A stretch of DNA of 64,000 nucleotides from Desulfobacteraceae bacterium (GTDB lineage: Bacteria > Desulfobacterota > Desulfobacteria > Desulfobacterales > Desulfosarcinaceae). This document shows positions 1 through 14,222 of the stretch, in pieces. The notes beneath the pieces were generated by a model. The model searched no databases. It was not told the DNA's origin and saw only the letters and a program-made list of their open reading frames with translations. A program made the translations under genes and the position numbers. The stretch is from NCBI GenBank assembly GCA_013003715.1, contig JABDIN010000099.1, forward strand, positions 1 through 64,000, written 5' to 3'. The first letter of the stretch is position 1. Every line of letters begins with the position of its first letter.

Positions 1-4
1 TTTT

Positions 5-36
5 AAAAGCCTGATCCAAATGGATCAGGCTTTTTT
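5..36 (+). terminator. Rho-independent terminator
   Basis: A perfect 13-bp stem (AAAAGCCTGATCC and its complement) closes a four-base AAAT loop and runs into a six-T tract. It probably ends a gene lying left of the window on the + strand, because the next + strand coding sequence begins just after it. Confidence 0.85.
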
Positions 37-48
37 ATTTGAAAAACG

Positions 49-186
49 ATGAGTTACTACGTTTACATTCTCAAAAGCCAAAAAGATGGAACCTACTACA
101 TAGGATCAACGCGGGATATCGAAGAACTCAAAAGTGATTTGAGTGCGCAATCTGGACGCCGGCGTCCTTCGACTGCCCCCTTTTAA
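49..186 (+). pseudogene. GIY-YIG endonuclease-like gene remnant
   Basis: The ATG at 49 opens 45 codons. The first 25 residues (MSYYVYILKSQKDGTYYIGS and onward to TRDIEE) match the start of the small GIY-YIG (UPF0213/YhbQ-like) nucleases, including the YV-YIL and YYIGS motifs. Family members run to about 80-100 residues, with the conserved Arg helix, Glu and Asn further on. Here homology stops near base 128 and the frame continues into an unrelated Arg/Pro-rich tail to TAA at 184. The breakpoint coincides with a 17-bp sequence that recurs at 2423-2439, so recombination probably truncated the gene. It cannot encode an active nuclease because the catalytic half is absent. Confidence 0.7.
131..147. 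repeat. 17-bp direct repeat, copy 1
   Basis: The sequence AAAGTGATTTGAGTGCG occurs here and again at 2423-2439 in the same orientation. The pair brackets the AT-rich exported-protein gene. Copy 1 lies exactly where the GIY-YIG homology ends; copy 2 lies inside the HTH remnant. They could be the scars of a recombination event or remnants of two copies of the same transposase gene. Confidence 0.6.
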
Positions 187-230
187 TTCCTCATTATTGG
201 AATTGGAGTCGAAAATGTTGATGGAGTATC

Positions 231-2243
231 TCATTCGGTATTCAAAGGAGCATTCATATCAACCAAATACAAGTAATCTAACTGAGCGTTTGATTCTCTC
301 CCTGAAATTTCAATGGTATGAGGTCCAGCATTCAAATTAACAATTAAAGGATTAAATTCTGGTGTTGCCTGATTCCCGGAACCGCGGGCACGAATTTCAT
401 CTTCATACCAAATATTGAATTGACCAGGTAAAGAATTGTAATTTATATCCCAAGTCTTTTGTCCGGTGTTATCAAAGTTCACATAAAAGGAGTTGTGAGA
501 ATCGTCACTTGTCATTACATTTGCAACAATCTTGTAAGAACCTGCATGGCTAATATTAAAAGAATATAATGCGGATCCGCTTAATTGGGCAGGTGTATGA
601 ATGTATTGACCATTTGAGGCGGTGGGATCTGACGTGACTATTGTCATTGGAGAAGTCAATGCTGCACTTTCAGCTTCTATAAACATTTGAGTATTTAAAT
701 CAACCAAATAAAAGTAGTCTAATTGAGCGTTTGATTCTCTTCCTGAAATTTCTAAGGTGTGAGTTCCGACACTTAAATTAACAATTATAGGATTGAATTC
801 AGGTGTTGCCTGATTCCCGGAACCTCGGGAACGAATTTCATCTTCATACCAAATATTGAACTGACCAGGTAAAGAATTGTAATTTATATCCCAAGTCTTT
901 TGTCCTGTATTATCAAAGTTCATATAAAAGGAGTTGTGAGAATCGTCACTTACCTTTACATTTGCAATAAATTTGTAAGAACTCGCACGGCTGATATTAA
1001 AAGAATATAGTGCAGATCCGCTTGATTGGACGGGCGTATGAATATATTGGCCATTTGAGGCTGTTAAATCCGAGGATACAATTGTCATTGGAGAAGTTAA
1101 AGTGGCAGTCTCAGCTTCAATCTTTGAAGTGTTTTCCGGAGGTAAAAGGACACAATCCGCACTACAATTTTCAGAGCTTTCATTTAATGAATCACAAATG
1201 CTGTCACCACAAAAGGACGTTGTGCCGGATATATTTTGGCAATTCTCAGAACATACAATGCAATTGGTCAAACCATAATCACACGTTTCAGTAAAAGTAT
1301 TCCCATCATCACACGTCTCGCCGCTTTCAACACTACTATTTCCACAAATACTGGGACATGCACCACAATCCGTTAGACAAGTTCCGCAAGTTTCAGCCTC
1401 ATTACAGGTTCCATCTCCACAAATGGGAATTACGCCATTAATAGGCCCGATATAGCCTGTGGTCGAGATTGCAATATCATCATAATCGATATACATTTCA
1501 CGGCCATTGGCAACATTTTTTTGATTGCTTCCTATTATTATTTCGTCTACAAATGAATCCTTAAAAAGAACACCTGAAGCGTCAATTACCAATCTCGCAC
1601 TATTTCCAACCCATAATTTTAAATTTCCACCGACAGCATCAATCATCGCTTCTACATATACCCAACTACCATCAGAAACTCCTGTGGTATAAAAATCTGT
1701 TCCCCATCCACAATTACTGCAAACTTCATTGCCAGAGGCCAAGTATTCAAATGACATTCCCCCTGTCGGGCTAAAAAAATTAATTAGGGGGCCATTTCTT
1801 TTATTTGCAAATCCATAAATTGATTTGTATTGTCCGAATTCACCATAACCCGATTCCCACCTTTGATACCACCGAATCCAAAATTTTCCTGGAGGTGAAT
1901 TTGGAAATATTCTTGTGCTCCCGGAATTAACGTTGGTACCATCCCCTATCCAATGTCTTTGACCTTTTCCGCCATTCCCATCAGGATTATTTGCAGCAGA
2001 TAGAATTTGTTCATATTTCCCGTTCGCAGTCCATGAACCTTTTTTAGATATACCATCACAAACTAGGGGATCGGAGTATTGTAACCAATCAGTATCTCCA
2101 TTCCCAGCATTCCCATCAGTGTCACAATCATAAGAGGTCTCCCAATATCCACTAGATAAATCGATAGCCTCAGAGCTGAATGATAGATTAAGAGCTGCAA
2201 ACCCAACGAATAAGATTAATAGAAAGTTAAAATTCGTTTTCAT
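231..2243 (-). CDS. Exported polysaccharide-lyase-like protein with Cys-rich repeats and duplicated C-terminal module
   Basis: The 670-residue protein starts with a clear signal peptide (residues 1 to about 26). Residues about 27-265 look like a beta-jelly-roll domain of the kind found in polysaccharide lyases (family impression only). Residues about 272-366 are cysteine-rich, with CGDGTCNEAETC and GETCDDGN motifs typical of the Myxococcus-type disulfide repeat. Two near-identical 147-residue modules follow, starting near residues 375 and 522 with IEAE and ending in LDY-YLVD, like a carbohydrate-binding module. The gene is markedly AT-richer than the backbone, suggesting transfer. A secreted, glycan-binding protein is likely. 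Any enzymatic activity is unproven, since I cannot place catalytic residues. Confidence 0.75.
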   Translation of the reverse strand: MKTNFNFLLILFVGFAALNLSFSSEAIDLSSGYWETSYDCDTDGNAGNGDTDWLQYSDPLVCDGISKKGSWTANGKYEQILSAANNPDGNGGKGQRHWIGDGTNVNSGSTRIFPNSPPGKFWIRWYQRWESGYGEFGQYKSIYGFANKRNGPLINFFSPTGGMSFEYLASGNEVCSNCGWGTDFYTTGVSDGSWVYVEAMIDAVGGNLKLWVGNSARLVIDASGVLFKDSFVDEIIIGSNQKNVANGREMYIDYDDIAISTTGYIGPINGVIPICGDGTCNEAETCGTCLTDCGACPSICGNSSVESGETCDDGNTFTETCDYGLTNCIVCSENCQNISGTTSFCGDSICDSLNESSENCSADCVLLPPENTSKIEAETATLTSPMTIVSSDLTASNGQYIHTPVQSSGSALYSFNISRASSYKFIANVKVSDDSHNSFYMNFDNTGQKTWDINYNSLPGQFNIWYEDEIRSRGSGNQATPEFNPIIVNLSVGTHTLEISGRESNAQLDYFYLVDLNTQMFIEAESAALTSPMTIVTSDPTASNGQYIHTPAQLSGSALYSFNISHAGSYKIVANVMTSDDSHNSFYVNFDNTGQKTWDINYNSLPGQFNIWYEDEIRARGSGNQATPEFNPLIVNLNAGPHTIEISGRESNAQLDYLYLVDMNAPLNTE
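240..1121 (-). repeat. Tandem duplication of a 441-bp module inside the exported-protein gene
   Basis: Bases 681-1121 and 240-680 encode consecutive copies of the same 147-residue module. The period is exactly 441 bp, as measured from the shared GCCTGATTCCCGGAACC block and from the two IEAE module starts. Copies differ mainly at scattered bases, so the duplication is recent or kept uniform by gene conversion. Confidence 0.85.
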
Positions 2244-2283
2244 TTTTCAATCCTCTCAAGAAATATTATTCTTTCACCTTCAA

Positions 2284-2469
2284 TTAGGCTTTGGGGACGT
2301 ACCTGACGAACGATACCTTTGTCGATCTCGATCCTGCGATCATCTTTGATACTGCCGATATGGTAATCCCCATCCGTCTTGCCACTTCTGCCGGTGTGAT
2401 GCCATGTTTTCCTATCAATTCCAAAGTGATTTGAGTGCGTTCGTCATCGATGTCCCCAATTACAGACAC
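2284..2469 (-). pseudogene. Helix-turn-helix fragment, probably the tail of a REP-associated transposase
   Basis: The 61-residue frame contains a helix-turn-helix (EVARRMGITISAVSKMI) followed by a short basic tail ending in RYVPKA. This arrangement resembles the DnaA-like or MarR-like HTH found at the C-terminus of REP-associated tyrosine transposases (TnpA-REP), whose N-terminal HUH domain is missing here. The frame overlaps the stop of the upstream 114-residue gene by 10 bp and has no good ribosome site. It carries copy 2 of the 17-bp repeat. A remnant is the best reading; a small free-standing regulator is possible but less likely. Confidence 0.45.
2423..2439. repeat. 17-bp direct repeat, copy 2
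   Basis: Identical in sequence and orientation to bases 131-147. It lies within the HTH remnant, where it is read as part of the RTQITLE stretch on the minus strand. Confidence 0.6.
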
Positions 2470-2804
2470 ATACGCTTACCATTCAAAATGAATGTTTCCA
2501 CAACATCCAATATCAACGTAAGGGCCTGCTCCTGAGTCATTTCTCTAATTGAAATTACATGGTTTATAAATTGTTGTACCTGATCATCAAGATCAACTTC
2601 GATATTTTCCTTGTATTCGATGATTTGGCCACCGAAGATATCAAACTCCTCGTCAAATTGCCTGTTCAAGATTTCATAAAACATATCAGTATCATTTGTG
2701 ATAAGAGATTCTAATTCAGATCGAATTGACATATCATCCCATATCTTATCGTCGATTTTTAAAATTAGCTCTCTATCTGCTTTGTATCTCATTCTCACTC
2801 TCAC
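2460..2804 (-). CDS. Hypothetical acidic protein
   Basis: A 114-residue frame with protein-like composition, acidic and helical, with no membrane segment and no family I recognise. A methionine four codons in (before RYKADREL) is an equally possible start. The AT-rich base composition matches the surrounding accessory DNA. It ends 10 bp inside the HTH remnant. It may be a small accessory or immunity-type gene, but nothing in the sequence shows a function. Confidence 0.4.
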   Translation of the reverse strand: MRVRMRYKADRELILKIDDKIWDDMSIRSELESLITNDTDMFYEILNRQFDEEFDIFGGQIIEYKENIEVDLDDQVQQFINHVISIREMTQEQALTLILDVVETFILNGKRMCL

Positions 2805-2924
2805 GAAACGCTGCGGTCATGGGCAGGAAGGATTTCCACTGACCTTCTTAAGTGTTGGTAATGTTGTTGACGCACTTATTGTCCATGGCCGTCCGGCCCT
2901 TGCCGTCCCTTGGACTGCAAGGTT

Positions 2925-3413
2925 TTAACTCACCCCTTTGATAGGAACCCAAATCTCCTCTTTTGCATTCGGATCAACAGGATTGTAGTCTTCAGGCAGT
3001 ATTTCAAAGTGCTCCCGGTTTTCAAGGGCATATTCAGATTTTTGTAACCATATGGGTTAAACCGAAGATTTCAAAAATTTCGTATTATCCCGCTACTCAC
3101 AAGGTTATATCTCTTTCTCATTTATTTTCATGCAAGATTCAGGTAATAAATATGTCTCCATTTCGGGTGGGACTTCCCCAAAAGATGATACCTCGACTGT
3201 TGCCCATTTTACGAACGGCATTTCCGGAGAAAAGTTCCAGTTATCTGGATATTTTTGCATGGAAATAAAATCCGCATTTATCCTGTTTTTTACCTCGGTC
3301 CGTCTCGGCATGAACGCTTGCCATAGTTCACCCGTCTTGTTCCTAGATAGGGACATTTCCTTTTGAATGCCTATCAGTTTCTTTGACTTCAATAGTTCTA
3401 TTCTTGGTTCCAT
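2925..3413 (-). pseudogene. GyrI-like effector-binding protein, broken by in-frame stops
   Basis: Read from the ATG at 3413 (MEPRIELL), the first about 100 residues match GyrI-like small-molecule-binding domains, as found in SbmC/GyrI and at the end of AraC regulators. The motif ELWQAFMPRR and a PPEMETYLLP segment are present. The frame stops at 3105. In the same frame three stops occur, then the family's C-terminus reappears at about 3030-2925 (SEYALENREHFEIL, then EEIWVPIKGVS) with a proper stop at 2925. Both halves share one frame, so point mutation and local decay of the middle explain the break better than a frameshift. Confidence 0.7.
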
Positions 3414-3536
3414 TTTGTATATGTTTTTGGTTATAAGGTTGGTGATGAAGATTTGATACCAATACTGTGTTTTAGGCGCTATAGCTTGATTGGTCAAGTC
3501 GAAAGATAAAACAGCCAAATACAATGGTGGACCGGT

Positions 3537-3752
3537 TCACAGGGGTGATTGGATGAAATTTTCAGTGATGCTTGTTGTTTTGTTTGCAGCCTTCAAATCC
3601 TGCGACTGGATTTGGAAAGTCATATCAAAGGACGGGGGCGGGCGATCCTCACGGTATTGGAAAGCAACCGTCCGAACATAGTCATATGCGCCATCTTTCT
3701 GTTCCATTGTACCTGAGCAGTAAACCGGTAATGCATATGCGGTTCTTGACAT
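3537..3752 (-). CDS. Small hypothetical protein
   Basis: A 71-residue frame of plausible composition (MSRTAYALPVYCSG... to ENFIQSPL). No domain is recognised and there is no clear ribosome site. It lies divergent to the CHSA-repeat membrane protein, within what would be that gene's upstream region. It could equally be non-coding. Confidence 0.25.
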   Translation of the reverse strand: MSRTAYALPVYCSGTMEQKDGAYDYVRTVAFQYREDRPPPSFDMTFQIQSQDLKAANKTTSITENFIQSPL

Positions 3753-3823
3753 TATATCGACTCATCGGCATACTCAAACGAAAAGGCAACAACTTCTCAT
3801 GGGTGAATGGTATCGGTGATCTG

Positions 3824-5539
3824 ATGATAAATCTGATGATAAAATGGATACGTGTTTTTGGATTGTTGGTGATGGCAGTGGTGCTCAGCGGTCAGTGGGA
3901 TGTATGCATGGCCGGCCGGGGCGAGCCTGTATGGTGTGAAGTCGAAGTTGAGCTGGATAAAAAGGGCCGGGCCGTAATCACGTACACGGTTAATTATGCT
4001 GTTGTTGAGGGCGAGTTCCATGGTTTTTTCTTCACGGGTCCGCAACTGGACCGGTTACAGCCCGAATGGCAGGATGAATGGGGCAGGGCAACCACCGGCA
4101 GCGGCCAGGAATATGGCATCGTCCGCGGCCATCGCAACGGCAAGGATACCATAGAATTGGCCGACGGCGCCGGTGTAAGCAGCGGCAACGTCATCTTCCG
4201 TTTCCGGTTCACGGCCGACATGGCCACGGCCGGGTTTTTGTCCATTACCACCGACCAGGACGGCAACCGGTTGGTGGTCCTGCACTGGGCGCCGTCCACC
4301 TGGGATCATGCGTTGTCTCATTACACCCTGCAGGTGAGGTATCCCGTCAAGGTGGCGGATCACATCGACGTACGCGGGGAATTCCTGGAAGATGTGCATT
4401 TCCGAACCGAACCGTTCATGAACGACTCATATAAAATCGATTACCGCCGGGGCCCGCGGCGACAGTTCGAGGTGTTGGTACACGTCGAAGAGATAACGGC
4501 GGACTACCATTTTCTCGTTCAGCAGTATGTCAAATCAACTCTTTTTGACATCAGTTCATGGACGATCCCCGGCAGTGACGATGCGCCTCAGATGAACGAG
4601 GCGGCCGGGAGTGACGGCCAGAGAGATGACAGGCCATCTTTTTTAAGCCGGTTTTTTACAACACCACGAATCACCACCCTGGTTGCCGGACTCATCCTGC
4701 TTGGCCTTTACCTGGTCATTACCGCCAAAAAACACAAGGAGATAAGGCTGGCCCTTGCGGAAAAGGACACCGTGGAGTGGCGCAGCATTGGCTGGAAAGC
4801 CCCTAAAATCGAATTGACGGTCTTCCGGGAACCCGGAAAAGTCTGTGAAAGCCTGACCCCTGTGGAAGTCGCTTTCTTTCTGGAAATGCCTTATAAACGT
4901 ATCCTCAGTTGTGTCCTGCAGCAATTGACCCAGGCCGGTTTTCTGGAAGTGAAAAGCGAATCTCCGCTGGTGGTAAAGGTTTTGGAACGAGACCCATCGG
5001 AATTGGAGGCCCTCGAAAGCTTTGAGCAATCCATGGTAAAGGCAGCATTGGATGATGGTGTTTTTTCGAAACGCGAGATGGAAAAAATTCTTGAGCAGGT
5101 CGTGGCATCGGTGCGTAAAAAATCCTGGGATTGCGATATAGAAGCCACCCAGAAATATTGGCGTAAACGTATCGAACGGATCTGGCGAAGCCGGGAAGAA
5201 GAAGGCCATCCGGGTATGGCGGAAGATGATGCCCGGCCGCTGTTGAACCGGCATTACGGTTGGCATCACTGGTATTTTTACCGACATCATTATGTCGATT
5301 ACGACAGCACCTTGACGCCCAACCGGTTTGAACGGTATTTTGACATCGATGTGGACCATGTGCCCCATGACGACTTCTTTGATAATTCCACCATCGATCT
5401 CGACGTCTGCCATTCGGCGTGTCACTCAGCCTGCCATTCGGCGTGTCACTCCGCCTGCCACTCGGCATGCCATTCCGCCTGCCACTCGGCCTGTCACTCC
5501 GCCTGCCATTCGGCCTGTCACAGTGGAGGGTCTTTCTGA
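3824..5539 (+). CDS. Membrane protein with cytoplasmic CHSA-repeat tail (candidate radical SAM substrate)
   Basis: About 571 residues from the ATG at 3824, chosen because it opens a signal-anchor (MINLMIKWIRVFGLLVMAVV); the ATG at 3836 is an alternative. An extracytoplasmic beta-rich domain of DUF2207 type follows. A membrane segment lies at about residues 282-301 (TTLVAGLILLGLYLVIT). The cytoplasmic part (about 302-460) is helical and winged-helix-like. A His/Tyr/Asp-rich linker follows, then nine CHSA tetrapeptides and CHSGGSF at residues 529-571. The predicted topology leaves ten regularly spaced cysteines in the cytoplasm, where the adjacent radical SAM protein would act. The stop overlaps that gene's start. 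The layout resembles membrane proteins with near-low-complexity Cys-rich tails; I do not know a characterised homologue. Confidence 0.8.
   Translation: MINLMIKWIRVFGLLVMAVVLSGQWDVCMAGRGEPVWCEVEVELDKKGRAVITYTVNYAVVEGEFHGFFFTGPQLDRLQPEWQDEWGRATTGSGQEYGIVRGHRNGKDTIELADGAGVSSGNVIFRFRFTADMATAGFLSITTDQDGNRLVVLHWAPSTWDHALSHYTLQVRYPVKVADHIDVRGEFLEDVHFRTEPFMNDSYKIDYRRGPRRQFEVLVHVEEITADYHFLVQQYVKSTLFDISSWTIPGSDDAPQMNEAAGSDGQRDDRPSFLSRFFTTPRITTLVAGLILLGLYLVITAKKHKEIRLALAEKDTVEWRSIGWKAPKIELTVFREPGKVCESLTPVEVAFFLEMPYKRILSCVLQQLTQAGFLEVKSESPLVVKVLERDPSELEALESFEQSMVKAALDDGVFSKREMEKILEQVVASVRKKSWDCDIEATQKYWRKRIERIWRSREEEGHPGMAEDDARPLLNRHYGWHHWYFYRHHYVDYDSTLTPNRFERYFDIDVDHVPHDDFFDNSTIDLDVCHSACHSACHSACHSACHSACHSACHSACHSACHSACHSGGSF
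5408..5524 (+). repeat. 12-bp coding repeat encoding (CHSA)9-CHS
   Basis: Nine consecutive 12-bp units of the form TGY-CAY-TCN-GCN encode Cys-His-Ser-Ala, followed by a tenth CHS. Units vary at silent third positions (TGC/TGT, CAT/CAC, TCG/TCC/TCA, GCG/GCC/GCA) yet every unit keeps the same four residues. Silent variation with constant protein sequence argues that selection maintains the peptide rather than the DNA being a fresh slippage product. Confidence 0.95.
5525..5530 (+). promoter_or_regulatory. Ribosome binding site fixing the radical SAM start
   Basis: GGAGGG lies 8 bases before the ATG at 5539. The CHSA repeats are open in the radical SAM frame too, which would allow a spurious start at 5419. 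This Shine-Dalgarno and the TGATG stop-start overlap show that translation starts at 5539. Confidence 0.8.
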
Positions 5540-6942
5540 TGTTGTTCGCGCGCACCGTCGAAAAAGGACATGCCCGTGACGATGTGGTTTTTCCGCATCA
5601 AGATTACGACCTCTCCTGGGTGGACGAATGGATTGCCAATGTGAGGGATTACATCCATGTGCGTGCCGAAGACAATGTGTTTATTCAGCGTCCCAACAAG
5701 GCTTTTCATCTCAACGACCAGGGGATCGACATTGTCAAGTCCCTGATCGACGGCAAGTCGATTCGCGACATCCTGGTGCCGTACGGCCCTGATCCGCGGA
5801 TTTGGCGTGACACCTGGCAATTTCTGACGGATCTCCGGAAACTGCTGAAAGACGGCCTGCAAGACACTTATGAATCCTCAGCAGTTGAGAAAATTCCCTG
5901 TAAACTTGAATTCTCCCGTTATCCGATTCTATCGGAGGTGGCGGTCACCTATCGCTGCAATGCGCGGTGCCTGTTCTGCTATGCCGGATGCGGTTGCCGG
6001 TCCCGGCCAGGGGACGACCAGGGGGAGATGTCCCTGTCCGAGATTAAAACCGTCCTGCATCGCATCTATCATCAGGCTAAAGTTCCCAGTGTCAGTTTTA
6101 CCGGCGGCGAACCCACACTCCGTGCTGATTTGCCGGAGGTCATCCGGTATGCACGGTCGCTGGGGATGCGGGTGAACCTGATCACCAACGGCATACTGTC
6201 AACAGCCGGTCTGGTCAAACGGCTCAAAACCGCAGGATTGCATTCCGCCCAGGTGAGTATCGAAGGTATAACGGCTCCCACCCATGAGCGCCTGACCTGT
6301 GTGGCGGGATCATTCCAAAAAGCAATCGAGGCTGTTCAACGCTACCAGGATGCAGGACTTACCGTGCATACCAATACAACCCTGACCCGCCTGAACCTGA
6401 AGGAAGCGGAGCGTTTTCCGGAGTTTGTCAAGGAGACACTGCAACTCGACACCTTCAGTATGAACCTGATGATACCTGAGGGGAGCGGGGCTGAGAACAA
6501 ATCGTTGGCGGTGAGTTATGTGGAATTGGGTCCGGTCATCGAAACCCTTCTGGCTGCAGCAAACAGGCAACAGGTTGATTTTAAGTGGTATTCTCCCATT
6601 CCCATGTGCATGTTCAATCTCATTGTCCATGGTCTGGGAAACAAGGGATGTGCGGCGTGCGACGGATTGATATCCGTCAATCCCCGGGGCGAAATCCTGC
6701 CATGTGCGAGTTTCGACGACCCCACGGGGTCTCTTCTGCATGAAGGATTCGAAAAGATCTGGCGATCCGGGAAAGCCACGGCATATCGACTGAAAACAAT
6801 GGCCCATACCATTTGCAAGTCTTGTGAGCATTTTCATATATGCCACGGCGCCTGTGCGCTTTACTGGCGCAATATGGGTTATGAGGAACTGATAAAACAC
6901 CACCGACCGGGTAAGTGTCCCAATGATGAAAAGGAAGGCTGA
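5539..6942 (+). CDS. Radical SAM/SPASM peptide-maturase-like protein with PqqD-like N-terminal domain
   Basis: 467 residues. Residues about 45-110 resemble a PqqD-type RiPP recognition element (RPNKAFHLNDQG, then IVKSLIDGKSIRDI). The radical SAM core has the C140-x3-C144-x2-C147 cluster motif (CNARCLFC) and the SAM-binding GGEPT motif. The C-terminal third has a cysteine-rich SPASM region (CAACDG, PCASF, CKSCEHFHICHGAC) that should hold auxiliary 4Fe-4S clusters, as in PqqE and anaerobic sulfatase maturases. This domain set is typical of enzymes that crosslink or otherwise modify peptide side chains. The gene is translationally coupled to the CHSA-repeat protein, so that tail is the obvious substrate candidate (inference). 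GGAGGG at 5525 sets the start. Confidence 0.9.
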   Translation: MLFARTVEKGHARDDVVFPHQDYDLSWVDEWIANVRDYIHVRAEDNVFIQRPNKAFHLNDQGIDIVKSLIDGKSIRDILVPYGPDPRIWRDTWQFLTDLRKLLKDGLQDTYESSAVEKIPCKLEFSRYPILSEVAVTYRCNARCLFCYAGCGCRSRPGDDQGEMSLSEIKTVLHRIYHQAKVPSVSFTGGEPTLRADLPEVIRYARSLGMRVNLITNGILSTAGLVKRLKTAGLHSAQVSIEGITAPTHERLTCVAGSFQKAIEAVQRYQDAGLTVHTNTTLTRLNLKEAERFPEFVKETLQLDTFSMNLMIPEGSGAENKSLAVSYVELGPVIETLLAAANRQQVDFKWYSPIPMCMFNLIVHGLGNKGCAACDGLISVNPRGEILPCASFDDPTGSLLHEGFEKIWRSGKATAYRLKTMAHTICKSCEHFHICHGACALYWRNMGYEELIKHHRPGKCPNDEKEG

Positions 6943-6946
6943 CGAA

Positions 6947-7972
6947 ATGAAAAATACGGCCATGGTTCGGACAGGCGTCGTGGATCTTTCAACCGAAAAG
7001 CAATTTCCGCTTCTTCAATTCCTGGTATTCAGGAAGATGGCTTACAATAAGCGGAGATTTCTATTCGCCGGCCTGGTGTTTTTGGGGCTGGCTTTCCAGG
7101 TATACACCCTGCAGGCATTGCCTGGATTTTTCTTTATCGCTTTTGCGGTGATGACCATGTGGGTGGTCGGTTTTGACTCCCAGGTGGATTATCACCATAT
7201 GAACGTAAAAGAGACATGGGTGCAGGGTGCATATGAGCACCTCTCTCAAATCGTGGAACTTGACCGTAAGCAGGAGAGATGGACCGACAGTGTTTGGGAT
7301 TTTTCCAGTATCAACGGCAAAATTTTCTTTGTTGTATCTTTAGTGGCCATTGTGATTCTGACCAATTTCATAAAGGCCATTACCCGCACGTCCGGGATCG
7401 GTGGGATTGTCTTTTTGGACGGCATCGCTTTCGTCAGTATCCAATGGTTCAAGGGAATGCGGCGGACCGACCGACGTCCGGAACTGGTTCAAAAAGCGGA
7501 TCACCTGGTGAAGACGGTGGACGGCTGCCCGGCGGCAGGCCGGTTCAACAAACAATTGGGAACCTTGTTGCTCATGGACCCGGAAGGGGAGGGCAAGGCA
7601 CCCAGCGACCTGAAACTGAACCTCTCCTTTCCGGACGGTCCGGACCACTTTTATGGCCTTCAGGGGCAGGTTGCCCTCAACCGTGTTCAGGGGAAGGCCT
7701 ATCCTTATTTCTATGCAGTTGTTGTGTGCAAAGAGGGCCATGTGCTCGATGCGTCGACCCGGAACGTCCCGGTTCCCGATGGCATTGTCCGGGAAGTCGC
7801 CACCAGGCAGGGTGCCGATGTGGTGATCCTTCGTCAACATACCACGGATACCTCCGGATACCATACAACCGTCGAGACGAGCGGTGCGATCCTCACAGCC
7901 GCCATCCAAACGGCTGAATGCTTTCTGGCCCGGCGGTCGGATACGAAGTCTTCCCCGAAGACATCAGCTTGA
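6947..7972 (+). CDS. Membrane protein, third gene of the CHSA/radical SAM cassette
   Basis: 341 residues from the ATG at 6947, preceded by AAGGAAGG at 6931-6938, which favours it over the in-frame ATGs at 6923 and 6926. Two adjacent membrane segments near the N-terminus (RFLFAGLVFLGLAF and FFFIAFAVMTMWVV) and two more (FFVVSLVAIVILTNFI, GGIVFLDGIAFVSI) flank a cytoplasmic loop. The C-terminal 170 residues form a soluble domain with a VVVCKEGHVLD segment. I do not recognise the family. Four bases separate it from the radical SAM gene, so it is probably part of the same functional unit, for instance as a partner, anchor or protease-like processor of the CHSA protein. That role is inferred only from position. 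Confidence 0.75.
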   Translation: MKNTAMVRTGVVDLSTEKQFPLLQFLVFRKMAYNKRRFLFAGLVFLGLAFQVYTLQALPGFFFIAFAVMTMWVVGFDSQVDYHHMNVKETWVQGAYEHLSQIVELDRKQERWTDSVWDFSSINGKIFFVVSLVAIVILTNFIKAITRTSGIGGIVFLDGIAFVSIQWFKGMRRTDRRPELVQKADHLVKTVDGCPAAGRFNKQLGTLLLMDPEGEGKAPSDLKLNLSFPDGPDHFYGLQGQVALNRVQGKAYPYFYAVVVCKEGHVLDASTRNVPVPDGIVREVATRQGADVVILRQHTTDTSGYHTTVETSGAILTAAIQTAECFLARRSDTKSSPKTSA

Positions 7973-7992
7973 ATCCGGTACGGGCCCTCGGT

Positions 7993-9570
7993 TTAATCTC
8001 CGGGCGCTGCATACTGCTTGCGCAGCTTGATTTTGAGTATTTTCCCGGAACCGGTCTTGGGAAGTTCGGTCATGAATTTTACGGTTTTGGGCACCTTGAA
8101 GCGGGCCAGTTTCTGGCGGCAGAAGTCGATCAGGTCCTGTTCGCCGGCTTCGGCGTTTTGCCGCAGCGCCACCATCGCCATGGGCACTTCGCCCCATTGT
8201 TCATCCGGTACGGCGATCACGGCACACTCAAGCACATCCGGATGCTGGTATAAGACATTTTCAACTTCCACCGAGGCGATATTCTCACCACCGCTGATGA
8301 TGATGTCCTTTGCCCGGTCCACGATCAGGATATAACCTTCGGCATCCACCGTTGCCAGATCACCGGTATAGAAATAGCCGTCCTTTATGGCCTGCTCGGT
8401 CTCGGCGGGCAGTTTCCAATAGCCTTTCATGACATTGTCCCCGCGAACGATGATTTCTCCGATGGTGCTGCCGTCCCGGGGGACATCCGCGCCATTTTGA
8501 TCCACCACCCGAAGGTCCACACCCGGGACTTCGAGTCCGGTTCGGGTAAGGTAATTCATTTTGTCCGCATCTTCAGAGTCCGCCAGGGTGTCTTTCAGGT
8601 TGCCCACGGTGAGCAGCGGTGTGGTTTCGGTCAACCCGTATCCGGAGATGTACCGGCAGCCGAGTTTTTCCATCATCCGTTGGGCATTGGCCGGAGACAT
8701 GGGCGCACCACCCACCATGACCCACTGCAGGGACGACAGGTCATAGCCGTCGATACCCGGTACAGCCAACAGGAAATTGATCATCGTCGGTACCATCATG
8801 GCAGCGGTGATGTGCTCATTCTGGATCGTTTGCAAGACCGGCTTGGGATCGAACAGGCGCTGCATCACATGGCAGCCGCCCTGGTAGGTGACCGACCAGA
8901 TGAAAAAGGCATCCGCCAGGTGAAACAGGGGGGCGATATGATGCCAGACCGTTGCGTCATCGAGCTTGAAGGCGATAATGGTACTCAGGGCATTGGCATA
9001 GATGTTTCGGTGGGTCAGCATCACGCCTTTGGGATTGCCGGTGGTCCCGCTGGTGTAATACAGGTTCAGCATGTTGTTTTCGTCGTCGGGTTCATGGTGG
9101 TCCGGGTCTGCCGGCGCACCGGACACCAGGTCTTCATAGGTGCCGGTAATCCACTCTTCATCGCACGGACCGTCGGCAATAAAAAAGTTTTTGACCTTGT
9201 TCAGCCGTGGGCGGGCCTGATCCAGTACCGTTATGAAATCAGCATGAAAAATAACCACTTCGTTTTCCGCGTTGTTCAGGATATAGGCGTATTCCTCGGC
9301 GGCCAGTCGGATGTTCAACGGTGACAACACATGTCCGGACAGGGCGGCGCCGAAATAGAGTTCCATGTAGCGATAGGTGTTGTAATCCAGGACCGCTACC
9401 CTCGCCCCATCGGAAATATTCAGTCCCCGTAAGGCATTCACCACCTGGTTGACCCGGTTTTGAACCTCGCTGTATGACCAGCGGATGTCGCCGTCCACCA
9501 CAGCTGTTTTGTCCGGATACAGCTTGACCGCTCGTTTCAGAATTCTGCCTGGCGTCATGGGAACCTGCAT
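7993..9570 (-). CDS. Long-chain fatty acid--CoA ligase-like acyl-CoA synthetase
   Basis: About 525 residues of the AMP-forming (ANL) superfamily. It activates a carboxylic acid with ATP and CoA through an acyl-adenylate. Visible motifs in order are the P-loop-like YYTSGTTGNPKGV, GYGLTETTP, the hinge-side YFYTGDLATVD and DRAKDIIISGGENI, and the C-terminal lysine motif PKTGSGKILK. The closest resemblance is to FadD-type medium or long-chain acyl-CoA ligases; the substrate cannot be read from sequence. AGGAG six bases upstream supports the ATG at 9570 rather than the ATG at 9576, which sits against the ribosome site. It is a single gene convergent with the CHSA cassette. Confidence 0.9.
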   Translation of the reverse strand: MQVPMTPGRILKRAVKLYPDKTAVVDGDIRWSYSEVQNRVNQVVNALRGLNISDGARVAVLDYNTYRYMELYFGAALSGHVLSPLNIRLAAEEYAYILNNAENEVVIFHADFITVLDQARPRLNKVKNFFIADGPCDEEWITGTYEDLVSGAPADPDHHEPDDENNMLNLYYTSGTTGNPKGVMLTHRNIYANALSTIIAFKLDDATVWHHIAPLFHLADAFFIWSVTYQGGCHVMQRLFDPKPVLQTIQNEHITAAMMVPTMINFLLAVPGIDGYDLSSLQWVMVGGAPMSPANAQRMMEKLGCRYISGYGLTETTPLLTVGNLKDTLADSEDADKMNYLTRTGLEVPGVDLRVVDQNGADVPRDGSTIGEIIVRGDNVMKGYWKLPAETEQAIKDGYFYTGDLATVDAEGYILIVDRAKDIIISGGENIASVEVENVLYQHPDVLECAVIAVPDEQWGEVPMAMVALRQNAEAGEQDLIDFCRQKLARFKVPKTVKFMTELPKTGSGKILKIKLRKQYAAPGD

Positions 9571-9662
9571 AATCATCTCCTTTTGTTATTCGGTGAGGAC
9601 CTTGTGTTCATAACTATACCTCCACATTATCGCTCTGTGTCAAGAGATGAATTGACTCACAT

Positions 9663-9743
9663 CAGGGCTAACGCATAGAAAATGTTACCTTTGGAATCGT
9701 GTCCGAGGAAAACAGGTCAAGTAATGTCAGATGACAAAATCCA
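9663..9743. repeat. Dispersed repeat A, copy 1
   Basis: About 80 bp that recurs in degenerate form at 23719-23793. Shared blocks include CAGGGCTAACGC, then AAACAGGT, AATGTC and AATGACAAA-type stretches at nearly the same spacing. It sits in the 250-bp gap between the acyl-CoA synthetase and attH genes. It looks like an old intergenic mobile or REP-like element. The rest of this gap shows nothing else I can name. Confidence 0.5.
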
Positions 9744-9828
9744 AATGCCAAAGGAAGGAATGCTGTCGATGGATCATCTTTGTATTAAAGCATCTGATGC
9801 CATGCCAAATCTACATGAGGTCACCCGG

Positions 9829-10971
9829 TCAACTTTCCCCGTACCCCACCAGTTCCACATATCCGTATCCGCCGGCATGGTCGCTGTCCACCTTTACCGC
9901 ACCCTCCCAGTAGACAAGGCGGTTGGTGTGCTCCTGGTCTTTGATGAGCGGTGTGACCACCAGTTCCAGCCCAAGGGGTTTGATTGCCAATTTCCATTTG
10001 ATGGGATATTCAACGCCGGTTTCCCGGCTGCGCCATTCATCTAAAATGTCGATCACAAAGTCTTCCGGTCCGAGGGGCTGAGAACCGCCATCCGGCAAAA
10101 TAATGGTTCCGGAGGAATATTCATCTCCCCTGTTATCTTTGTCTCTGATCTGATACAGCATAATATCGCGGCCGTCATTCAATTGCAGGGCAAACCAGTC
10201 CCACCCGGTTTGCTCCGGGCCGAGGGCGCTGGTGCTCCACTCGCGATCCAGCCATGAGAAACCTTTAACGGAAAAGTTGTCGTCGTTGACGGTTATTTTA
10301 CCGGTGGTGGCCAACCGTGTCTGCGAGAAATAATAGGATGCGTTGCCGACACCTGGTCCTTTTTGACTCAGGCCGTCCTTCCCGTTGAGGACATGGGGTT
10401 TTTCAGGAGATAAAATCAGTTCCAGGGACAAGCCGTTTTCCACCGCGGTAATGCGAACGGCGTCCGTTTCCTCACGGACCACCCAGTTTTCCAGCCACAC
10501 CCTGTAGGGTTTTGATGTCGCACCGGCCAAACCGGCCCCTTCACGGGAGAAACGTTCAAAATGGTAAAATGTATCTTTATCCACGTCGGTAACGGCCAGA
10601 TGACCGATAAATACATGCCGGGTGCGCCAAGTTGAAGCCGGCGGTTCCTTATCGCCGGATGAAGCGGTCATCGCCCGCCGAAACAGTGTAAACTGGTATC
10701 CAAAGCGCCGGCCATCCGGGGCCGACAGGTTTCCGGTGTAATACCACCATTCGGTTTGAAAACCGTTATGGGGTCCGTTGTCATCGGGGAATATGAACTT
10801 TCTGGGATGTATGGCCCGGCTGAAATGGTCCGGAGAAGATTCCGTTTTGAGCAAATCCACCGGGTTTGCACTGAAGTCATTGTCCTTGTGCTGGGTATTT
10901 TGTTTGACACCCAAGGTTATGGCTGCGGCCAGGAAAGCGAGACTGAAGAGGACTATGATAAGTTTTTTCAT
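9829..10971 (-). CDS. AttH/CrtC-like lipocalin-family exported protein
   Basis: 380 residues with an N-terminal signal segment (MKKLIIVLFSLAFLAAAITLGV). The mature part matches the AttH/carotenoid 1,2-hydratase-like double-lipocalin family. Motifs are HPRKFIFPDDNGPHNGFQ, TEWWYYTGNL, the conserved FTLFRR and the later WLDREWS and GWDWFALQL. Family members sit beside FtsX-like ABC exporters (the AttEFGH arrangement), as here: the start lies six bases after the permease stop. The ligand is unknown; a role in handling a lipid or other hydrophobic molecule at the periplasmic side is inferred from the fold. It is the last gene of the operon read from about 14.2 kb. Confidence 0.85.
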   Translation of the reverse strand: MKKLIIVLFSLAFLAAAITLGVKQNTQHKDNDFSANPVDLLKTESSPDHFSRAIHPRKFIFPDDNGPHNGFQTEWWYYTGNLSAPDGRRFGYQFTLFRRAMTASSGDKEPPASTWRTRHVFIGHLAVTDVDKDTFYHFERFSREGAGLAGATSKPYRVWLENWVVREETDAVRITAVENGLSLELILSPEKPHVLNGKDGLSQKGPGVGNASYYFSQTRLATTGKITVNDDNFSVKGFSWLDREWSTSALGPEQTGWDWFALQLNDGRDIMLYQIRDKDNRGDEYSSGTIILPDGGSQPLGPEDFVIDILDEWRSRETGVEYPIKWKLAIKPLGLELVVTPLIKDQEHTNRLVYWEGAVKVDSDHAGGYGYVELVGYGES

Positions 10972-10977
10972 ATGGCA

Positions 10978-13527
10978 TCACTCCATGCGCAGGGCGTCGG
11001 CGATTTTGCCCTGTCCGGCGTGGCGGCAGGGATACACACCGGCTAAAAGGGATGCGACCACGGCGAGCGTGACGGCCAGGACATAGTGGACGGGATCGAT
11101 TTCAAACCCGGCACTCCAGCCGAATGACCTTTTGTTGATGACAAACACGAGGATCCACGCCAGAATAGTTCCCAAGGGTATGGCCAGGATGCCCGCGATA
11201 CCGCCGATTAAACCGCATTCAGTCAGGATCATGCGCCACAACTGCCCAAGGGTCATGCCATTGGCCCGCAGAACACCGATTTCCCGGGTACGTTCCATCA
11301 TCAGGGACATCAATGTGTTGAGAATGCCAATAAAAGCGACCAGGGCGGCGAGCAAACGCAGGGCAATGGTAATGGCAAAGGTGTTGTCAAAAACCTCGAG
11401 GGTCGTCTCTCTGATCTGGGACCGGGGGATGACCATGAGTTGTCCGGGATCCCCGAGCCGGGTTTTGATGGTGTCCGTCAGTTCGGTCATGTCCGTTCCC
11501 GGTGTTGCGGAAACCGCCACGCCAATGGTTTGTGTGTTATCCCAGAATTGTTCGAACACATCATGGCGCATGACGACAATGCCGCCCTGGGTTGAGAAGT
11601 CGGTGAATATCCCGGCTATATTGAATTCGATGTTTCCCCTATCCGTCGGTAAAACCAGGGACGGTCTGCCGTTATCGGGTATTTTAAATTTCCAGGCCAG
11701 GGTTTCGGAGATGAAAACCCACCCCTTGTCGAATTTATTGTATGTCTCACTTTCAGATCCGGTGGTCCATACCCAATTGCGTTTTGCCGGATCGCTGTTC
11801 GGCGCGTATACCGAGGTGAATTTATAGGGACCGGTTTGGATGGAGATGCCATGGAAAAAGTATATGTCATTGACTCCGGGTATCCCGCCGACTTCGTCTT
11901 TTACCCAATCCGGTACACCGGGATTCATTTCATCGGTGCCGGTAATATAAATATCCGCTCTCATGGTGTGGTCGATCCACACCATGACCGATGTACGCAA
12001 GCTGTCCACCATGAGCCCGACACCAATGAAAACAGCCACCGAGATCATGAGCGCTGCAATGGAAACACTGGTGCGGCTGAGGGATTTCGGAATATTGCGA
12101 ACCGCCATTTTCCCGGATATATTTCCCGTGGCATCCATTATACGGGCGATTATTTTACTCATCCAATTGCATAGGCAGGGCATCCAGAATGCTGATCCCA
12201 CAACGATCAGAAAAATACCTGTGAATCCGGGGATGAGTCCCTTGCCGGGGAGAAACAACAGACCGGTTCCCGTTCCTGTGAAGATGGTCCCCGACAGGAT
12301 CAGTACCGGTATGATTCGGTTTAGACGGCTCTCAAGGACAGATCGCCGCAGGGCATCCGCCGGTGCCACTCTCGCCGCTTCCAGGGCCGGAAATATTGCA
12401 GATATGAGTGAAACGAGGACGCCCAGGAAAAAACCCTTCGCGAGGGTGGGCATGGATATTGAATAATCACTCACCGCGAGCGGGTAATACATTTGCGAGA
12501 CGGTTTCGGTGACCATGCGCACCGCACCGATGCCGAGTAGATATCCCAGTACAAAACCCAGGAAAATGCCGATGAAGCCCAGTACGAGGGTTTCGAAGAC
12601 GATCATTTTAAAGATCTGGCCCCGTGTGGCGCCAATGGCCCGCAGGATTCCGATCAGGTTCCGCCGCCGGACGACGGAGAACGTCACGGTATTGTAAATT
12701 AGGAATCCGCCGACAATAAGGGCCAGGAGACTGAAGGCGGTCAGGTTGGACTCGAATGCCGCTGATAATTGACGGATATCCGTGCTGCGTTTACGGGTGG
12801 ATTCTATCTCCACACCGGTGGTCAATATCGGTTGGATCCGGTCCAGCACGGTTGGACTGTCATTTCCGATGATCAGATCGATATAGCTGATCCGATCACC
12901 CCATCCGAGAAGTTCCTGGGCCGTGGCGATGTCCATGAGAATTAACCCGTTCAGGGCTTTTTCCGCAAACCGGCTGTTGGCATCCAGTAATCCGGCAATC
13001 GTCATCTTGTTTTTTTCCCCACCGACATCGAGTGTCAGGGAATTGCCAGACGACAACTGATATTCTTCCGCAAGGTGCCGGCCGAGAACGATATGTTGCC
13101 GCTGCATGATAACGGTGGTGAATGTCTCGGTTTGATTGGTGCCCTGATTGCCGTTGAAGTAATTCCGGAAATCGGTTTCCGTAAACGGATCAACACCCAA
13201 TATCCGCATCCACCGGCCGTCCATTTCCGGAACCATGGCGTAGCCGGTGACAACCGGTGCGCATTTCCGGAATCCCAGTTCCACGCGCAATCGTGTGTAA
13301 ATGGCCTGGTCGATGTTTCCGCGGTGGCCGATAATCCGGTGGGTGGCCCTTCCGGTGAGACCTTCGGTTGAAAATGTGAAGGAACGGCCCACACTGGCGT
13401 TGGCCATATCAATGGCGATCACCACGGCGACACCCAATGAAATACCGATTACGAGCAACAGGGTCTGTAGTGGATATGCGCGGGAAAAGCGCATTCCGAT
13501 ACGGATCAGCGGTTGATCGATCATCAT
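10978..13527 (-). CDS. FtsX-like ABC exporter permease (AttF/AttG type)
   Basis: 849 residues with the MacB/FtsX layout duplicated: an N-terminal anchor, a periplasmic domain and three membrane helices (LTAFSLLALIVGGFLIYNTV, then VLGFIGIFLGFVLGYLLGI). A second anchor near the middle, another periplasmic domain and the closing helices follow (LLAALVAFIGILNTLMSLM, then GLIGGIAGILAIPLGTILAWIL). The two halves correspond to the separate AttF and AttG permease halves, carried in one chain. With the ATPase upstream and the lipocalin-like protein downstream it forms an exporter that may extract a membrane lipid or lipoprotein-like substrate, as Lol and Mac systems do. The substrate is not determinable here. 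Confidence 0.85.
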   Translation of the reverse strand: MMIDQPLIRIGMRFSRAYPLQTLLLVIGISLGVAVVIAIDMANASVGRSFTFSTEGLTGRATHRIIGHRGNIDQAIYTRLRVELGFRKCAPVVTGYAMVPEMDGRWMRILGVDPFTETDFRNYFNGNQGTNQTETFTTVIMQRQHIVLGRHLAEEYQLSSGNSLTLDVGGEKNKMTIAGLLDANSRFAEKALNGLILMDIATAQELLGWGDRISYIDLIIGNDSPTVLDRIQPILTTGVEIESTRKRSTDIRQLSAAFESNLTAFSLLALIVGGFLIYNTVTFSVVRRRNLIGILRAIGATRGQIFKMIVFETLVLGFIGIFLGFVLGYLLGIGAVRMVTETVSQMYYPLAVSDYSISMPTLAKGFFLGVLVSLISAIFPALEAARVAPADALRRSVLESRLNRIIPVLILSGTIFTGTGTGLLFLPGKGLIPGFTGIFLIVVGSAFWMPCLCNWMSKIIARIMDATGNISGKMAVRNIPKSLSRTSVSIAALMISVAVFIGVGLMVDSLRTSVMVWIDHTMRADIYITGTDEMNPGVPDWVKDEVGGIPGVNDIYFFHGISIQTGPYKFTSVYAPNSDPAKRNWVWTTGSESETYNKFDKGWVFISETLAWKFKIPDNGRPSLVLPTDRGNIEFNIAGIFTDFSTQGGIVVMRHDVFEQFWDNTQTIGVAVSATPGTDMTELTDTIKTRLGDPGQLMVIPRSQIRETTLEVFDNTFAITIALRLLAALVAFIGILNTLMSLMMERTREIGVLRANGMTLGQLWRMILTECGLIGGIAGILAIPLGTILAWILVFVINKRSFGWSAGFEIDPVHYVLAVTLAVVASLLAGVYPCRHAGQGKIADALRME

Positions 13528-13550
13528 CGCATTTTAACTTTTCAATCGTT

Positions 13551-14222
13551 TTAGGTTTGCGTTAATTTAAGGTTTTCAATGGTCAACACGCTATCGGCCC
13601 AGTTCACCGCTTCCCTTGAATGTGTCGCCATAATCAGGGTCGACCCGGCGTCCTTAACCAGACTGGCGAGCACTTCCAGTATGGTCCGGCTATTGGTTTC
13701 ATCCAGATTTCCGGTGGGTTCATCGGCCAGAATGACCTCCGGGCGGTTGGCAAGTGCCCGGGCAATGGCGACCCGCTGCTGTTCACCACCGGAAAGCCTG
13801 TCCGGGTCTGATTCCATTCGATGGTCGAGGCCGACATGCTGCAACGCGGCGGCGGCATGTTCGCGGGCCTGGGAAGGTGTTTTGCCGTCCAGCTCCGACA
13901 CCAGAGTGACATTTTCAAGGACGGATAGGGTTGGGATGAGATTGAAGAACTGAAATATGAACCCGATGTGACGTCTGCGGAATACGGTCCGCTGGGTGTC
14001 GGTCATTTGGGACAGATGCCTGCCGCCGATGTGGACCGATCCTTTGTCCGGTGTATCCACCCCACTGATGAGATTCAGCAATGTGCTTTTCCCCGAGCCG
14101 CTTTTCCCGAGTATCACATAAAAACGGCCGGGATCGAAAACAGCGCTCAGGCCGCTGAGAATGGGGTGATCTTTATCCGCCTCCCGGTAGGATTTATAAA
14201 CGTCGGATAGAAGGATGTTCAT
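13551..14222 (-). CDS. ABC transporter ATP-binding protein (LolD/MacB/AttE type)
   Basis: About 223 residues from the ATG at 14222 ([12 protein letters not shown]), the start that fits family length; in-frame ATGs at 14255 and 14303 would add a non-conserved leader. Walker [10 protein letters not shown], signature [14 protein letters not shown], Walker [14 protein letters not shown] and the H-loop in [11 protein letters not shown] are intact, so it should hydrolyse ATP. It is the first gene of a three-gene operon and lies 23 bp before the permease. There is no strong Shine-Dalgarno at any of the three starts. Confidence 0.85.

Follow-up and report, generated by a model that had tools for sequence, protein, structure and literature searches.

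What does a radical S-adenosylmethionine (SAM) enzyme act on when its gene lies between the genes of two membrane proteins, one of which ends in a run of CHSA repeats? The question is raised by a stretch of 64,000 nucleotides from a Desulfobacteraceae bacterium (assembly GCA_013003715.1, contig JABDIN010000099.1, positions 1 to 64,000; hereafter the window), in which positions 3824-7972 of the + strand hold a cassette of three genes labelled A (encoding P0001, the protein with the repeat tail), B (the radical SAM gene), and C (encoding P0003). An earlier, sequence-only reading of the window had described the three genes as tightly coupled, and this was borne out by the overlap of the A stop codon with the B start (TGATG; B from 5539), the gap of 4 bases between B and C, and an order that is kept in relatives. 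It had also proposed that the radical SAM protein modifies the tail while its carrier sits in the membrane. The comparative analysis makes it probable that B is the modifying enzyme of a Cys-rich, cytoplasm-facing tail on membrane-anchored A and not of a small precursor.

The tail of the window protein, (CHSA)9-CHSGGSF, contains 10 Cys and 10 His, and its nine CHSA units are encoded by seven distinct 12-mers that differ in synonymous codons. The tail recurred in 14 loci besides the window with very little amino-acid change while the bodies of the A proteins diverged, which makes it the conserved element of the protein. In the A4 alignment (14 rows, the window included and L040 not), mean identity over 91 pairs was 96.9% for the tail (lowest 88.6%, gap columns excluded) versus 43.9% for the body (lowest 22.1%). 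Among the 14 non-window tails, 59% of the codons for identical residues differed (91 pairs), and the 13 residue differences in the first 30 positions all fitted the single CHNA unit of L029. Since the tail is about 97% and the body about 44% identical though more than half of the tail codons differ, the tail peptide is under strong purifying selection and is not a young DNA repeat. The ten sites counted in the sequence-only reading are present in the window tail, which is the odd one of its family; the usual tail is CHDA-(CHSA)6-CVSGGSH with 8 Cys. Further variants included a Gly/Ser stretch ending GGW added in L028, ends that are off by one residue in L034, L040, and L042, and extra Cys ahead of the tail in L042.

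Relatives were collected by scanning the B alignment against an 84,980-genome collection, which yielded 16 loci (L028-L043), or 17 with the window. Record names assigned them to Desulfobacterales/Desulfococcus, UASB270, Aminicenantes, Acidobacteria, Bacteroidetes/Bacteroidales, and Armatimonadetes; most are metagenome-assembled genomes (MAGs), and the placement of their contigs rests on the MAG records. The homologues were found to occur together with the tail: an A gene with the tail lay directly upstream of B in 15 of the 17 loci, window included, and C lay downstream in 16, in L028 at a distance of about 3.2 kb behind two other genes, while the L035 contig ends just behind B. Pairwise distances of A, B, and C were correlated (r 0.82-0.87; 13-15 loci), as expected of genes inherited together. 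A tail without a radical SAM neighbor was also sought; none of the three A matches obtained from 395 genomes in the phylum (E up to 1e-10) was such a case. In 146 related genomes searched with A, the single long match besides the window (G132, 38% identity) also had B; the other matches (L007-L014, short and tail-like, in five other genomes) were judged to be unrelated low-complexity sequence. When 192 genomes of the class were searched with B (E up to 1e-40), G132, G213, and G225 were recovered at 52-54%; their contigs are apparently those found again as L030, L032, and L041. No B relative was found on plasmids (E up to 1e-60) or viral contigs, and a 296-genome sample of the L037 phylum (E up to 1e-55) held no such radical SAM gene except in the genome of L037 itself. 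Apart from those of the near relatives L030/L031, and from the B start itself, small open reading frames (ORFs) in 13 intergenic gaps were not conserved.

The strongest argument for the action of B on the tail came from a second family and from control proteins. In the 395-genome phylum sample, the B alignment matched six genomes (E up to 1e-60), all six with a Cys tail beside the radical SAM gene, and A4 matched three (window, G132, and G297; E up to 1e-10). The window and G132 carry the CHSA cassette; G260, G297, G332, and G360, all from one family, carry a distant radical SAM gene directly behind the gene of a DUF2207-like protein that ends in CACACACAGCACACAGGGR, a CACA-type tail identical in 4/4 loci. 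The cytoplasmic domains of the CHSA- and CACA-tail A proteins are homologous (hhalign probability 97.9, E 4.9e-13), and the radical SAM proteins of the two families are linked in the tree only by very long branches. Second-family A proteins have a longer hydrophobic stretch and an ambiguous topology, and their four loci gave no gene C or LemA match. As controls served 13 ordinary DUF2207 proteins (L079-L091), found in 13 of 118 genomes of the phylum (E up to 1e-8). Cys is absent from the final 60 residues of every one, a Gly/Ser tail closes 12 of the 13, all 13 adjoin LemA in a tight pair, and no gene C was found in the stretch covered for any. No radical SAM match lay behind any of the 13, with at least 2.3 kb of sequence there in 10 and under 0.6 kb in L079, L080, and L086. 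A Cys tail thus goes with a radical SAM gene and a Gly/Ser tail with LemA. Two distant radical SAM enzymes next to two fixed Cys tails on a homologous carrier, and controls with neither, argue for the tail as the substrate of B.

The ordinary DUF2207 proteins are also a useful comparison for A itself. Protein A resembles them in its predicted signal sequence, outside beta domain, membrane span, and cytoplasmic domain, and in a low-complexity tail whose end combines Gly residues with an aromatic residue or His. It differs in that CHSA replaces or precedes the Gly/Ser tail and in its neighborhood, with LemA in 2 of the 17 cassette loci (L028 and L041; 2 of the 9 loci whose sequence extends 1.3 kb or more upstream of A) versus all 13 controls; the window ORFs gave no LemA match.

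Table 1. Positions in the window of the cassette genes and of features predicted in their products.
Feature	Position	Strand	Remarks
Gene A	3824..5539	+	571 aa; signal sequence, then predicted outside-facing and cytoplasmic domains on either side of one membrane span, then CHSA tail
Outside-facing beta domain of A (predicted)	3914..4567	+	aa 31-248; similar to DUF2207-N; resembles OST1/ribophorin I and M1 aminopeptidase N-domain in fold
Membrane span of A (predicted)	4670..4726	+	aa 283-301; hydropathy
Cytoplasmic domain of A (predicted)	4781..5188	+	aa 320-455; homologous to CACA-tail family, weakly TIGR04222-like
Tail of A, (CHSA)9-CHSGGSF	5408..5536	+	presumed substrate
Gene B	5539..6942	+	467 aa; radical SAM/SPASM; Pfam Radical_SAM 2.8e-25, SPASM 1.5e-6
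N-terminal PqqD/RRE-like region of B (tentative)	5608..5868	+	
CxxxCxxC motif of B	5956..5979	+	C140, C144, C147; invariant in 16/16 aligned B proteins
Eight invariant Cys in SPASM part of B	6607..6855	+	C357, C371, C374, C389, C426, C429, C435, C439
Gene C	6947..7972	+	341 aa; four predicted spans and cytoplasmic domain, weak type III chaperone/YbjN-like fold

The identity of B as a radical SAM/SPASM protein was confirmed by both Pfam domains (SPASM at 28.8 bits versus a cut-off of 21.5, and present in 16/16 members) and by the invariant CxxxCxxC motif. In all, 11 Cys are invariant across the 16 sequences, and the eight of the SPASM part would suffice for two fully ligated auxiliary clusters. 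B scored far below the cut-offs of the best 25 of 81 NCBIfam models, the highest being AhbD with 142 of 500 bits. Viperin-like PADLOC matches (81 bits) were ascribed to the common radical SAM core, and a Cas9 match of the N-terminus (E 0.00027) was taken as chance. In an Aminicenantes MAG (L034:8022-9512), the radical SAM gene has an in-frame insert of roughly 35-40 residues just after CxxxCxxC; it resembles an upstream stretch of the same ORF, as though a small repeat element had inserted twice.

Protein A has an outside domain that appears to be exchangeable. An AF2 model of P0001 (mean predicted local distance difference test score, pLDDT, 72.5; predicted template modeling score 0.43) was compared by VIA, in which residues 31-239 matched OST1/ribophorin I (Z 14.4, root-mean-square deviation 3.1, 176 aligned) and also the M1 aminopeptidase N-domain; the CHSA tail was modeled as a single helix at low confidence (block pLDDT 30-48). 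The Pfam DUF2207 N-domain was detected at E up to 1 in 8 of 14 A proteins (best 2.2e-5), the window protein not being among them. In the A protein of L028, a TPM domain (4.2e-38) takes the place of DUF2207 and is fused to the usual span, cytoplasmic domain, and tail, so the outside domain is exchangeable with the cytoplasmic half and tail kept. The L028 locus (UASB270, 2404-7667) offers a natural contrast between tailed paralogues: in one run it holds the genes for LemA, for a protein weakly like TPM, for a TPM protein that adjoins the tailed A as its paralogue and has a Cys-free Gly/Ser tail, and for the TPM-CHSA fusion. Of the 12 N-terminally complete A proteins, 11 showed by hydropathy a signal at the N-terminus followed by a single span, L042 being the exception (L031 and L038, cut off at the N-terminus, were left out of the count); on this order of signal and single span, judged by hydropathy alone, the tail would face the cytoplasm. 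The low-complexity Cys tail of the A family follows a cytoplasmic domain that weakly resembles TIGR04222, matched at E up to 1 in 6 of 14 A proteins at 29.5 bits at best against a cut-off of 43, and not in P0001. Because A homologues begin near the Met equivalent to position 3836, that position rather than 3824 may be the real start of A.

Protein C had been called an unrecognised membrane protein, and so it stayed: neither P0001 nor P0003 reached the cut-off of any Pfam or NCBIfam model, and hydropathy gave C several spans. At the cut-off used, four hydrophobic segments were counted in 10 of 16 members, three in four, five in one, and two in one. For about residues 178-334, VIA returned type III chaperones/YbjN at Z 4.4-7.4, a range that the tool calls common and that provides a lead only; Foldseek gave no match under E 0.001.

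Several observations weigh against B as the maturase of the tail. Locus L033 has B and C without an adjacent A, and none was found elsewhere in its 5.2 Mb MAG; there, a gene with a recG-C-terminal-like domain (HATPase_c_4) lies ahead of B. L043 also has no A, on a contig that begins inside B, and the A gene of L040 is interrupted by a stop. The window tail is atypical of its family in length (ten units), first unit, and last unit, and one control, L083, has a distant radical SAM-like gene on the opposite strand beyond LemA. The scan that started from the radical SAM gene could not reveal orphan A genes, the searches that started from A covered 395, 146, and 7 genomes only, and the phylum search with A, run at E 1e-10, recovered just one of the four second-family A proteins. 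The PqqD-like N-terminus of B, which would be the docking site as a recognition element (RRE) of ribosomally synthesized and post-translationally modified peptides (RiPPs), fared unevenly. In the main B family, PqqD was detected in 5 of 16 members when E values up to 1 were allowed, the best being 0.0079, and the N-termini of main- and second-family radical SAM proteins aligned weakly in hhalign (probability 6.8, E 0.0053); in its favor, PqqD was over the cut-off in the one second-family protein examined (28.6 bits versus 23.4). The B N-terminus also matched the RRE protein TfuB1 at E 0.023.

Other explanations can be set against the same data. The tail might work as translated, as a Cys/His element for metal binding, cluster binding, or redox chemistry, with B acting elsewhere (on C, a small molecule, or a metal centre) or aiding metal loading. 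CHSA does alternate Cys and His, and CACACACAGCACACA resembles the CxC arrays of metallothioneins, but a metal tail would be expected to tolerate change, and over their first 30 residues the 14 non-window tails vary at only one position of one sequence (L029). An unmodified tail is also hard to square with two distant radical SAM families that both adjoin Cys-tailed DUF2207-like proteins while the 13 controls have no tail Cys and show no radical SAM match behind them (three of them with under 0.6 kb of sequence there), and we regard this explanation as unlikely.

That the tail is a chance or DNA-level repeat among unrelated neighbors is scarcely credible; the copy number can change, as the window tail exceeds the usual count of units in the family, but the same peptide is encoded by different codons in several phyla with the gene order kept, which already refutes it. 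A further alternative would make A a membrane-tethered RiPP precursor whose tail is modified by B and then freed by a protease as a peptide. A C-terminal, repetitive, and nearly fixed tail is indeed reminiscent of a core peptide, and L041 has LemA and M48 genes immediately upstream. M48 relatives are found, however, in 1 of the 17 loci, hydropathy places the tail on the cytoplasmic side, and such invariance across phyla is unlike known secreted peptides. By eye, and with no systematic search for exporters or peptidases made, nothing recurs besides A, B, and C. Release of a peptide thus seems quite improbable.

Under the favored reading, in which B modifies the tail of A, A would be anchored in the membrane with the CHSA tail in the cytoplasm, and B, translationally coupled to A, would bind it, probably via the N-terminal PqqD/RRE-like region. 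Radical SAM chemistry on the Cys-rich tail would follow, and the guess is that thioethers are most likely formed at the Cys along the repeat. The CHSA and CACA repeats have Cys and Ala in common, with Ala the sole shared non-Cys side chain, so one may guess at Cys-Ala thioether links with Ala as acceptor. For C, a role in holding or reading the tail at the membrane may be guessed. The finished tail would be a rigid element, or, speculatively, a metal-binding or redox one, joining the outside-facing domain to the cytoplasm.

Known systems share parts of this arrangement. The His-Xaa-Ser (HxsA/HxsC) and PapB ranthipeptide systems likewise join a short repeated motif to a radical SAM/SPASM maturase. 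Their scores for B are low (HxsC4 90.8 of 500 bits, PapB 71.6 of 340), and the repeat here is CHSA. Closer in spacing are the CXXX-repeat systems of NCBIfam (TIGR04115 maturase, TIGR04117 Syntroph_Cxxx target), in which a radical SAM maturase is paired with a target that has Cys at every fourth residue. These targets are small proteins, and P0001 reached 12.4 bits versus the TIGR04117 cut-off of 50. TIGR04117 matched 13 of 14 A proteins weakly (best 16.3 of 50 bits), over the tail in the two examined closely, and TIGR04115, run at E up to 10 in the genome of B, gave three matches, none over the cut-off and B not among them. Among thioether products, freyrasin is described with six Cys-Asp thioethers in a review (PMC8326336).

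The closest published analogues are the multinuclear non-heme iron-dependent oxidative (MNIO) enzymes that adjoin TIGR04222 membrane proteins with Cys-containing C-terminal tails (PMC12452194). Both arrangements comprise an integral membrane protein with a large outside domain, a low-complexity Cys tail, and a RiPP-type maturase next door, and A has a cytoplasmic domain related to TIGR04222 below the threshold. In the published pairs the enzyme is an MNIO, the proteins vary greatly, and the tail, rich in Ser/Gly with Cys scattered through it, is predicted to lie in the periplasm (PMC12452194), in contrast to the cassette with its radical SAM/SPASM enzyme, predicted cytoplasmic and nearly invariant tail, and gene C in 16/17 loci. 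The statement of the sequence-only reading that the system is unlike most RiPPs therefore holds, with the amendment that precedent exists in the MNIO/TIGR04222 pairs (PMC12452194) and in the CXXX-repeat radical SAM systems of NCBIfam. A link to OvoA/5-thiohistidine was set aside, its own source having concluded that neither DUF2207 nor LemA has a direct connection with it (PMC12631010). Open-licence PubMed Central articles yielded nothing joining radical SAM with DUF2207 or a CXXX repeat with radical SAM, and the string CHSACHSA only in an unrelated public-health context.

Elsewhere around the cassette, an Rfam scan of window positions 1-14000 gave no match, and promoter and terminator scans gave a signal near shuffle level. 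On the minus strand of the window, positions 231-2243 encode a possibly carbohydrate-binding protein of 670 aa that begins in a signal-like sequence, contains Cys-rich parts, and has two stretches resembling each other towards the C-terminus, and two short overlapping ORFs, one with a helix-turn-helix-like sequence, lie near the cassette at 2284-2804. In G132 (L018:1-2968), the cassette lies a few kb from cas4/cas1/cas2-like genes and a CRISPR-like repeat array recognised by eye.

Most RiPP-type radical SAM enzymes act on small precursors, whereas the present evidence suggests that B is a dedicated maturase for a large membrane protein's tail. As the peptide is kept nearly letter for letter across several phyla, the product probably has an essential task in A and is not a released natural product. 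The comparison with the MNIO pairs suggests that MNIO and radical SAM enzymes have both been recruited to modify such membrane-protein tails, and the cassette offers a handle on the widespread, unexplained DUF2207/LemA/TPM membrane modules. More tentatively, and at somewhat less than even confidence, a class of "membrane-tail maturation" may be envisaged, in which LemA-neighbor DUF2207-type proteins swapped their Gly/Ser tail for (CHSA)n or CACACACAGCACACA more than once, gaining a dedicated radical SAM enzyme, and in which the membrane-bound tail becomes a permanent crosslinked, cofactor-like structure for signalling or metal/redox handling in anaerobes. If true, membrane-tail maturation would yield a modified peptide that is encoded in the genome, fixed in the membrane, and at no point released.

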